Below are positions 21,055 through 23,461 of a DNA stretch of 64,000 nucleotides, in pieces (position 1 is the first letter of the stretch; each line of letters opens with the position of its first letter). The position numbers and the translations under genes were made by a program. A model generated the notes under the pieces. It was not told where the DNA came from. It searched no databases and saw only the letters and a program-made list of their open reading frames with translations. The stretch comes from Archaeoglobus sulfaticallidus PM70-1 (GTDB lineage Archaea; Halobacteriota; Archaeoglobi; Archaeoglobales; Archaeoglobaceae), in the NCBI RefSeq assembly GCF_000385565.1, contig NC_021169.1, positions 1,470,571 through 1,534,570 on the forward strand. The letters run 5' to 3'.

Positions 21055-21402
21055 AGAAATACACCGATTTAAAGAATTAAGGATTCATATAAAAATATAT
21101 CGGATAATGGCTGAGCGATGTAGCCTAACATTCTGGCGGGATTCCAGATGCTGTAAAAACTTAGAATATTTAAATAAAAAAAGAAAAATTAAAGTATACA
21201 CTCCCGAGCAGATGGTACGCAAGCTTGGCAAGATCACCATTAACCTATATCCACTCTACCATTGCCGTTGAAGTCTGCTAACCGATTGGAGCTGCCAAAG
21301 ATCATGCATCCGAGTATCATCAAATCTGCGATGGAGACATACTATTAGCTGGAAGTGTTGTCAACTTCAATTTTATATGCCATTCGTACATCAAAAAATC
21401 CC
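21055..21402. other. Spacer with divergent promoters and a possible decayed gene
   Basis: The left part (21083-21100) holds the leftward promoter for ilvE. On the plus strand, GAATATTTAAATA at about 21164-21176 is a good TATA box, followed about 37 nt later by a 19-codon frame from ATG 21212 (MVRKLGKITINLYPLYHCR, stop). The codons just before that ATG read YTPEQ, and YTPEQMVRKL resembles the start of IS3-type OrfA proteins, but the match is too short to rely on. A second TATA (TTTTATATG, 21370-21378) suits the radical SAM gene. No complete gene is seen. Confidence 0.4.
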
Positions 21403-22464
21403 GTGCTGTACATAATAATCCTGACAGGGAAATGCAACCTGAACTGCAGCTATTGCGGTGGAAGCATTGATGAAAGAATAATGCCTGCTGAGATAAGCTA
21501 TCCACTGGAGGAGCTATACGAATTCCTGAATCGGGATAGTGACCTATCCATAGCATTCTATGGAGGAGAACCGCTGCTGCGGATAGATCTGATAAAAGAT
21601 ATAATGGAGAATGTGGAGGCAAAACATTTCATACTTCAAACCAATGGATTACTCCTCGACAGGTTAATTGACGAGCTAGATGACATAAATGAGTTTTCCA
21701 CAATACTGGTATCCATTGATGGTGTAAAGGAGGTGAACGATTACTACAGAGGGAAAACATATGAAAGAGTCATGAGGAATGTTGAGATAATAAAAAAGCA
21801 CTACAAAGGAGAGCTTATAGCGAGAATGGTTGCCACAGAGAGAACGGATATATACAGGGATGTTCTGCACTTGCTTGAGCGTTTTGAATATGTTCACTGG
21901 CAGATAAATGCTGTCTGGGTGGATGAGGATTTCTACAGCGATTTCATTCAGTGGATTAGGGAATATAATCGGGGAATAGGCAAACTTGTGGATTTCTGGA
22001 TTAAAGAGCTCGAGAGAGGTGTTGTTAGAAAGATAGTCCCGTTTCTCGGGATTGCTTCAGCTTTGCTGGGATACAGTCTACCAAAACCACCTTGTGGTTC
22101 TGGAGAAAACTCTTTTGTGATAAGCACAGATGGAAAAATACTCGCTTGCCCCATATGTGCAGACCTCGAGTGGAATCTGGCAGGGGACATATGGAATGGC
22201 ATTAACAGGAACAGTTTCTTGGATGTTGATAGATGTTCGGGGTGTTCAGCATTCTCTGTTTGTGGCGGGAGGTGCCTGTTCTTCAACAGAGAAAGGCTGT
22301 GGAGTGAAAATAAGATGAACGCTGTCTGTGATGCCACCAAAAACCTCATTTCCAGAATCGAGTGGCACATACCACGGATAAAATCCCTGATTGAGGAGAA
22401 AATTGTATACGAGAGAGATTTGATTTATCCAAAGTATAATAATACCACTGAAATAATACCCTAA
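21403..22464 (+). CDS. Radical SAM/SPASM protein, putative peptide-modifying enzyme (AF1577-like)
   Basis: About 353 residues. The radical SAM cluster motif is LTGKCNLNCSYCGG right at the N-terminus, followed by IAFYGGEPLL (GGE motif). The C-terminal third is SPASM-like: CGSGENSFVISTDGKILACP, then CSGCSAFSVCGGRC, giving about seven Cys for auxiliary Fe-S clusters. This layout matches the archaeal group described as putative peptide-modifying enzymes. The GTG at 21403 is preferred because a TATA box ends 25 nt upstream (leaderless start) and relatives begin just before the first strand. A GTG at 21355 would add 16 residues. No obvious precursor peptide gene is present. Its downstream neighbour is an unrelated RHH gene with its own promoter. 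Confidence 0.75.
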   Translation: MLYIIILTGKCNLNCSYCGGSIDERIMPAEISYPLEELYEFLNRDSDLSIAFYGGEPLLRIDLIKDIMENVEAKHFILQTNGLLLDRLIDELDDINEFSTILVSIDGVKEVNDYYRGKTYERVMRNVEIIKKHYKGELIARMVATERTDIYRDVLHLLERFEYVHWQINAVWVDEDFYSDFIQWIREYNRGIGKLVDFWIKELERGVVRKIVPFLGIASALLGYSLPKPPCGSGENSFVISTDGKILACPICADLEWNLAGDIWNGINRNSFLDVDRCSGCSAFSVCGGRCLFFNRERLWSENKMNAVCDATKNLISRIEWHIPRIKSLIEEKIVYERDLIYPKYNNTTEIIP

Positions 22465-22474
22465 CAATAGAAGT

Positions 22475-22503
22475 GTAATATTTTAGTAATATTCCAGTAA
22501 TAT
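22475..22503 (+). promoter_or_regulatory. Three 11-bp-phased direct repeats, candidate operator of the RHH-transporter operon
   Basis: GTAATAT occurs at 22475, 22486 and 22497, exactly 11 bp apart, with the unit GTAATATTYYA. The array ends just upstream of a TATA-like stretch (CCTTAAATT, about 22512-22520), which is 30 nt before the ATG of the RHH gene. Ribbon-helix-helix dimers typically bind side by side on one face of DNA at repeats spaced by about one helical turn, so autoregulation is the natural reading. Confidence 0.6.
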
Positions 22504-22546
22504 GATCGAAAACCTTAAATTCTCAAGGTGACCTCTCCAAGAGAGG

Positions 22547-22732
22547 ATGCCAAAGGTTAGTCTCGATATACCGAAAGAACTGTATGATGACCTTATGGAA
22601 CATGTCGGTGAGGATAAGAAGTTCGTAAACCTAAGCGAAGCTATACGCACGGCAATAAGAAAAATGCTCGATCAGCTGGATGAAATAGATAGAAGACATG
22701 GAAGATTAAAGGAAAAGAAATCGAAGGAGTGA
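22547..22732 (+). CDS. Ribbon-helix-helix (CopG-type) regulator
   Basis: A 61-residue protein. The N-terminal strand PKVSLDIPKELYDDLM is the DNA-contacting ribbon, and LSEAIRTAIRKMLDQ is the second helix of the RHH fold. A basic tail follows (RRHGRLKEKKSKE). It precedes a VUT/YhhQ transporter gene by 9 nt, so the two form an operon. The three phased repeats upstream are its likely binding site. It could be mistaken for an antitoxin, but the partner is a transporter and not a toxin, so control of queuine/archaeosine-precursor uptake is the more likely role. Confidence 0.82.
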   Translation: MPKVSLDIPKELYDDLMEHVGEDKKFVNLSEAIRTAIRKMLDQLDEIDRRHGRLKEKKSKE

Positions 22733-22741
22733 GGGAGTACT

Positions 22742-23461
22742 ATGTTGCTGTCAGAATTTGTTATGTGGGTTGCTGTAACACTCGGTATCGTTACAACCAT
22801 AGCGATCATATCAGAGCGGTTTGGAGTGGAGATTGCAATAGGAATCTATGCATCTCTGACAGTTATAGCAAACATAATTGCAGTAAAGCTGATTTCTGTT
22901 GGAACTGTGCCGTACTTCGGCTTGCTCGTGGGACCTGCAGGAGTTATCGTTTATGCATCAACTTTCCTGATAACTGATATAATAAGTGAGATCTACGGGA
23001 AAGAGATTGCTAAGAAAACAGTAATTACCGGATTCTTCGCCAACATAGTGGCAGTTGCATCAATCATGATAGCAGTGATATGGAGTCCCGCACCCTTCAT
23101 GCCAGAAAACCTGCTTAAGAGCTTTGATACAATATTCAGCATGACTCCGAGGGTAGTCATAGCATCTATAATTGCATATCTGATCTCACAGACCCATGAT
23201 GTTTACGCTTACCATTTCTGGAAAGCAAAGACCAAGGAGAGGTTTCTGTGGTTGAGGAACAACGCATCTACAATGGTCTCTCAGCTTATAGATACGATCG
23301 TGTTTATAACACTGGCTTTCTATGGTGTATTCGACTTAAACGTTCTGTTAGCGATGATCACCGGACAGTATCTGCTCAAACTGACAATAGCGCTTGTCGA
23401 TACACCTTTCATGTACATTGCCGTTTACACGAGAGGTTTGGTAAAATCCTATAATTTATAA
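22742..23461 (+). CDS. VUT/YhhQ-family transporter, probable queuosine or archaeosine precursor uptake
   Basis: A 239-residue membrane protein with about six TM helices. YhhQ family features are the VUT-type stretch ISVGTVPYFGLLVGPAGVIVYA, FLITDIISEIYGKEIAKK (the DxxxExYG motif, about 80) and SQLIDTIVFITLAFYG (about 180). Bacterial YhhQ imports 7-deazaguanine precursors such as preQ0. Archaea use preQ0 for archaeosine at position 15 of tRNA, so salvage is a sensible role. Coupling to an RHH regulator is notable. A T-rich run at about 23469-23481 right after the stop may be its terminator. Confidence 0.82.
   Translation: MLLSEFVMWVAVTLGIVTTIAIISERFGVEIAIGIYASLTVIANIIAVKLISVGTVPYFGLLVGPAGVIVYASTFLITDIISEIYGKEIAKKTVITGFFANIVAVASIMIAVIWSPAPFMPENLLKSFDTIFSMTPRVVIASIIAYLISQTHDVYAYHFWKAKTKERFLWLRNNASTMVSQLIDTIVFITLAFYGVFDLNVLLAMITGQYLLKLTIALVDTPFMYIAVYTRGLVKSYNL

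Follow-up and report, generated by a model that had tools for sequence, protein, structure and literature searches.

Repressors of the MetJ, NikR and Arc type are RHH proteins that act as dimers on tandem or paired half-sites, and in MetJ and NikR repression by the RHH protein is tied to a small-molecule pathway and its transporters. Archaeal RHH proteins include the aCcr1 cell-cycle regulators (NF053762), whose recognition sequence, AGTATTA, is TATTA-like. The haloarchaeal protein CdrS (NF058555) regulates the cdrS-ftsZ2 operon and binds a symmetric motif near promoters (PMC7439475, PMC8406309). In bacteria, yhhQ and queuosine-precursor genes are often placed under preQ1 riboswitches, and for archaea a salvage of preQ0 has been proposed, without a regulator (PMC5372724). 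Transport of the precursor has been shown solely for YhhQ of E. coli, by an indirect method (PMC5372724). No description of how archaea control the supply of preQ0, from which they make the tRNA modification archaeosine, was found in the literature searched.

The DNA analyzed here (the window) is a stretch of 64,000 nucleotides from the genome of Archaeoglobus sulfaticallidus PM70-1 (NC_021169.1, positions 1,470,571 to 1,534,570). It encodes a protein that resembles CdrS in being a stand-alone archaeal RHH protein of approximately 60 aa encoded upstream of an operon target gene. However, the gene that follows is yhhQ and not ftsZ2 (in other loci, yhhQ, que genes or other neighbours), and the protein differs from CdrS in its linkage to que/yhhQ genes, in the arrays of 11-bp-phased RRGTAWTACYY units associated with it and in its scores, which are far below the CdrS cut-off. 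The aCcr1 regulators are likewise archaeal RHH proteins, but their targets are different, and the family described here matches the aCcr1 model weakly (17–21 bits at a cut-off of 60). Unlike MetJ, NikR and Arc, the protein has no recognised ligand domain, and its units of 11 bp, its motif and its archaeal promoters also set it apart from them. As for the preQ1 riboswitches, the target genes are of the same kind and the regulatory job is the same as that proposed for the RHH protein; the difference is that a protein and a predicted DNA operator take the place of an RNA aptamer, in archaea, where archaeosine is made from preQ0.

According to the sequence comparisons presented below, the 61-aa RHH protein is predicted, with a probability of about 0.83, to be a dedicated transcription regulator of the supply of 7-deazaguanine (preQ0, the archaeosine precursor), and probably a repressor. 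It is probably a previously undescribed regulator, with its regulon, built from a known fold, since it is not CdrS according to the model and no published account of an RHH protein that regulates archaeosine, preQ0 or queuosine genes was found in the literature covered, which omits most subscription papers and bioRxiv preprints. The preliminary description of the locus, made from the sequence alone, knew of no such regulator either, and within that coverage the literature agrees. The features of the locus are listed in Table 1.

Table 1. Features of the RHH-yhhQ locus, with positions in the window.
Feature	Position	Strand	Basis
Radical SAM/SPASM protein, TIGR04084 family	21355..22464	+	Directly upstream; conserved C-terminal NTTEIIP codons overlap unit 1
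Operator array (predicted), five 11-bp-phased units: TAATACCCTAA, CAATAGAAGTG, TAATATTTTAG, TAATATTCCAG, TAATATGA	22454..22505	+	Sequence, shuffles, genus comparison
BRE/TATA-like element CGAAAACCTTAAATT	22507..22521	+	Sequence; consensus judged by eye
RHH gene, 61 aa, que/yhhQ-linked RHH family	22547..22732	+	ORF, orthologs; identity of 90–93% in three genomes of the genus and of approximately 60–79% in the phylum
yhhQ (Vut_1/COG1738), which follows RHH in the operon; predicted transporter of 7-deazaguanine precursors, 239 aa	22742..23461	+	HMM; adjacency to RHH in four genomes

The RHH and yhhQ ORFs are separated by 9 bp on the same strand. The YhhQ protein matches TIGR00697 (queuosine precursor transporter) with 197 bits at a cut-off of 51, and PF02592 with 190 bits at a cut-off of 27 (E 5.5e-56). 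As for the upstream protein, its assignment to the RHH proteins in the preliminary description is borne out through its orthologs: its own score with the RHH_1 model is weak (15.2 bits, cut-off 20.5), but two haloarchaeal orthologs pass with 23.3 and 26.5 bits, the remaining ones being below the cut-off. The best sequence match in the PDB was the RHH protein ORF56 (E 0.04). In the AlphaFold2 model of the monomer (pLDDT 88, pTM 0.60), helices are predicted with confidence at residues 10–17 and 29–50, and the N-terminal strand is not formed without a dimer partner; a fold search of the PDB with this predicted monomer gave no significant match (NikR and the RHH domain of PrpA, E > 1). Identity among the orthologs spans the whole 57 residues, with M1, K3, P9, D15, H19, G21, K25, V27, A32, R34, R38, L41, D42, D45, D48 and R53 invariant. 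Beyond the 39-residue RHH core, D45, D48, R50, G52 and R53 are near-invariant, and these conserved residues may serve in contacts with a ligand or between dimers. A protein of 57–61 aa would have little room for a ligand pocket, which counts against a ligand-sensing switch.

TAATA-type cores are found at 22454, 22465 (CAATA), 22476, 22487 and 22498, that is, with a step of 11 bp throughout, and the units in the window have the form AAGTAATATTY. The three GTAATAT repeats noted in the preliminary description at 22475, 22486 and 22497 are all present on the + strand; they had been placed just upstream of the TATA box of the RHH-yhhQ operon, and the last unit does abut the BRE/TATA-like element. 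The array is longer than these three repeats and contains five units. The heptamer GTAATAT alone is not rare (8 occurrences in the window, 5.8 expected), so it is the 11-bp phasing that exceeds chance and not the heptamer count. The four- and five-unit scores were matched by none of 2000 dinucleotide-preserving shuffles, and the best period was 11. The pattern TAATA-N6-TAATA-N6-TAATA with zero mismatch occurs once in the complete genome of 2,076,931 bp, and this single occurrence is the RHH-yhhQ array. Searches for a wider regulon in the same genome, in which 1 and 2 mismatches were allowed, gave no more matches than the reversed-pattern control (17 vs 17), and no suitable promoter with another phased array emerged from them.

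Unit 1 of the array is located inside the last codons (EIIP-stop) of the upstream radical-SAM gene, and these codons are conserved for coding reasons too. The TIGR04084-family gene, which probably lies outside the RHH-yhhQ system, is also found upstream in genome G011 of the same genus. In G013, another member of the genus, the upstream gene is different, and the array of that genome is therefore no by-product of a neighbouring coding sequence. From the position of the BRE/TATA-like element, transcription of RHH-yhhQ would be expected to start near the RHH start codon; the array then extends from approximately −43 to −87 relative to the expected start and abuts the BRE. A transcript that starts at or next to the ATG, as predicted, would have no leader for a preQ1 aptamer.

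The RHH-yhhQ pair is present in three other genomes of the genus (G010, G011 and G013), with RHH proteins 90–93% identical. All four promoters of the genus contain TAATA-type units at 11-bp steps (six units in G013), the letters between the units having diverged, and the array is followed by BRE-TATA in the same layout in the orthologous promoters. G009, of the same genus, contains yhhQ without RHH, as do most Archaeoglobaceae that keep yhhQ, which indicates that RHH is dispensable for the pathway. Among the RHH-less Archaeoglobaceae, arrays were found at none of 18 yhhQ promoters and at none of nine queC promoters; the two top scores (15 of 21) among the 18 yhhQ promoters stem from the upstream gene, at its conserved codons of the NTTEIIP type. 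No array was found at queC of the window genome, G010 or G011, nor at the second yhhQ of the window genome. Since these queC promoters are without an array, the three genomes seem to control the transporter alone through RHH.

A search of the genomes of the phylum revealed RHH orthologs, with an identity of 60–96%, in 162 of 394 genomes and in 62 of 136 genera. Gene neighbourhoods were surveyed for 106 RHH loci taken from the best-scoring hits and belonging to 16 families. The RHH gene is located directly upstream of yhhQ, queC or queD, on the same strand, in 61 of these loci and in 13 of the families, although such counts over related genomes are not independent events. The preliminary description had made its proposal depend on linkage of RHH to yhhQ in other genomes, and with 61 of the 106 loci upstream of yhhQ or que genes this linkage held. 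In Archaeoglobales and in most of the sampled haloarchaeal families, yhhQ is the gene that directly follows RHH. The order RHH-yhhQ was observed in families f1, f2, f10, f12, f15, f22, f28, f33 and f35, RHH-queD-queC-queE in f21 and f29, RHH-queC-DUF366-queE in f11 (with queD next in the longer loci), RHH-queC-queE in f27, and RHH-queC-yhhQ in one genome; f5, f20 and f30 contain standalone RHH genes only. Families f10, f15, f20 and f22 are haloarchaeal, judging by their true CdrS genes. Analysis with NCBIfam and Pfam models confirmed QueC, QueD, YhhQ and DUF366 over the cut-offs, and QueE matched several QueE models below the cut-off.

The units in the linked promoters share the consensus RRGTAWTACYY, whose near-palindromic 11 bp are what a symmetric dimer should recognise, and strong units are mainly spaced by 11 or 22 bp. 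Of the 60 linked loci, 46 have their best 11-bp array in the RHH promoter, compared with 7 of 45 unlinked loci. In every linked group the mean three-unit score was higher at period 11 than at the other periods from 8 to 14 and higher than in shuffles; for the AT-rich linked set it was 15.8, against 11.45 ± 0.21 in shuffled sequences. The standalone RHH promoters of f5 are at chance (11.95 vs 11.75 ± 0.21 shuffled), and the standalone haloarchaeal ones are somewhat above it, mainly owing to several two-unit f22 copies. In f5, where RHH is elsewhere in the genome, the array is found at queC: 14 of 17 queC promoters score at least 16, with a group mean of 16.8 against 12.45 ± 0.23 shuffled. In the queD-queE-queC operons of haloarchaea, one to three units are present where queD starts, also in genomes with RHH beside yhhQ. 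Arrays in haloarchaea are short, with one or two clear units, and are absent from some of the linked promoters. No regulon could be defined from a two-unit pattern applied to 22 genomes, which was too unspecific, although in the GC-rich genome G122 its matches were located within queD or beside it. The array of most lineages occupies the DNA between the TATA box and the start codon, with units typically 30, 19 and 8 nt before the ATG, and at locus L097, from the same order as the window genome, it also lies over the TATA-to-ATG stretch.

The gene linkage, the phased arrays, their co-occurrence with RHH and the arrays in trans at queC are results of computation, and the strongest points among them are the variety of gene orders, the presence of arrays in trans and the negative controls, which are clean. 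The proposal of the preliminary description, a self-regulated RHH switch for precursor salvage, is supported by the linkage and the arrays, but it was too narrow, since the biosynthesis genes queC, queD and queE are covered too.

We infer from these data a DNA-binding regulator that acts cooperatively and represses, possibly in response to a ligand. RHH dimers would bind the near-palindromic units every 11 bp, an arrangement that would align successive dimers along one face of the helix and let them bind cooperatively. In the window genome, with the sole array in its own promoter, RHH would control itself and the co-transcribed YhhQ; in related archaea, the ortholog would act in cis or in trans on queC/queD/queE and yhhQ. 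The likeliest mode would be repression by blocking the pre-initiation complex, relieved when the precursor is short, because most lineages have the array between TATA and the start codon, the site of an archaeal repressor. In the window genus, where the array is upstream of BRE/TATA, blocking of TFB or activation would also be possible. Since both synthesis and import genes are targeted, preQ0 or a derivative would be the natural candidate for the signal.

The resemblance to CdrS raises the question of whether the protein regulates cell division, or acts globally, in the manner of CdrS and stands beside yhhQ by chance. Among the named models, that of CdrS is the closest (37 bits, E 2.6e-9), and the protein is 41% identical to a true CdrS over 51 residues; eight members of the RHH family, however, score 24–37 bits at the CdrS cut-off of 100 (NF058555). 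Haloarchaeal genomes that contain this RHH have a true CdrS elsewhere (for example, G143, C2:295525 vs C7:155760), and the window genome has a better CdrS-like match at 1710485. Linkage of the RHH gene is to que/yhhQ, and no ftsZ was seen beside it in the loci read, by eye only. This explanation is consequently highly improbable, and membership of CdrS itself was rejected on the score and on the separate true CdrS genes. Even less credible is the view of the repeats as a chance remnant or an AT-rich upstream element to which no protein binds. It is true that TAATA is a common AT-rich word, that GTAATAT occurs at chance frequency in the window and that unit 1 is coding; yet the 11-bp phase is kept in four diverged promoters, and arrays occur at que/yhhQ promoters of unrelated families and of GC-rich haloarchaea and are missing in RHH-less Archaeoglobaceae.

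The other two alternatives concern how a regulator of 7-deazaguanine supply would work. RHH could be a simple repressor without a metabolic signal, the link to 7-deazaguanine being real and only a constant level being set. The very small size of the protein, the lack of a recognised ligand domain and the restriction of the array to RHH's own promoter in the window genome agree with this, but the near-invariant residues past the RHH core suggest a further conserved function, and the f5 genomes, in which RHH is unlinked and queC has the array that the RHH promoter lacks, misfit pure autoregulation; a simple repressor is thus possible, though on balance not favoured. A less probable, and on the whole doubtful, alternative is that in the window genus RHH activates the operon, the array being upstream of BRE/TATA at the usual site of an archaeal activator. 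The distance of approximately −43 to −87, in a layout that the relatives within the genus share in similar form, is comparable to that of CdrS sites, which are mostly 41–110 nt upstream of start sites, and two genes with such sites are considered to be activated by CdrS (PMC8406309). Against activation, the array is in the repressor position between TATA and ATG in other lineages, including that of L097 in the same order, and the last unit in the window nearly touches the BRE and could block TFB.

The preferred reading, a dedicated regulator of precursor supply, extends in its broadest form to a phylum-wide archaeal regulon, in which an RHH protein of approximately 57 aa would govern queD-queC-queE and yhhQ through cooperative 11-bp-phased operators and would sense preQ0 or a derivative, as a protein counterpart of the bacterial preQ1 riboswitches; the odds of this extended form appear to be even. 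If the reading is correct, the RHH protein, which accompanies the precursor genes in Archaeoglobales, haloarchaea and methanogen-like lineages, would be the missing regulator of archaeosine-precursor supply. It would define a regulon of precursor genes that is testable in tractable haloarchaea and Methanosarcina, provide a clean model for RHH assembly on 11-bp-phased archaeal sites, and give a function to many small proteins labelled merely as RHH or CdrS-like.

As for the pathway itself, the window genome encodes QueC and an archaeosine TGT (611 bits), and its ArcS-like protein is just below the model cut-off (420 vs 440 bits). In the draft assembly G013, RHH-yhhQ and ArcTGT are present and no QueC was found over the cut-off; with the caveat of a draft assembly, this combination fits a salvager. 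The second yhhQ of the window genome (L002:1489-3401, genome approximately 728,635-730,547) is convergent with a gene for a bacterial-type tRNA-guanine(34) transglycosylase, which matches TIGR00430 with 552 bits at a cut-off of 307 and is additional to the normal archaeosine TGT. All members of the genus have TGT-family matches close to the second yhhQ, and in G050 (L053) one is directly upstream of yhhQ. Since archaea are said not to synthesise queuosine (PMC5372724), the bacterial-type TGT beside the second yhhQ makes a queuine-type salvage route in Archaeoglobaceae worth a look.

A DUF366-type protein (PF04017; 250 bits for the L153 copy) is encoded right behind queC in f11 and f5 genomes (L119, L131-L133, L151-L156, L158-L162, L164, L166, L169, L175 and L176), and this position suggests that it may act in the same pathway as queC. 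Two to four RHH copies, one of them with yhhQ, are present in G143 (L201, L236, L237) and G332 (L196, L197), and standalone extra RHH copies in some haloarchaeal genomes carry a two-unit array on their own promoter. In addition, the window genome contains a second small RHH gene (G000:C1:1710476-1710622, L022), which is its best CdrS-like match (41 bits) and a candidate for the Archaeoglobus counterpart of CdrS.
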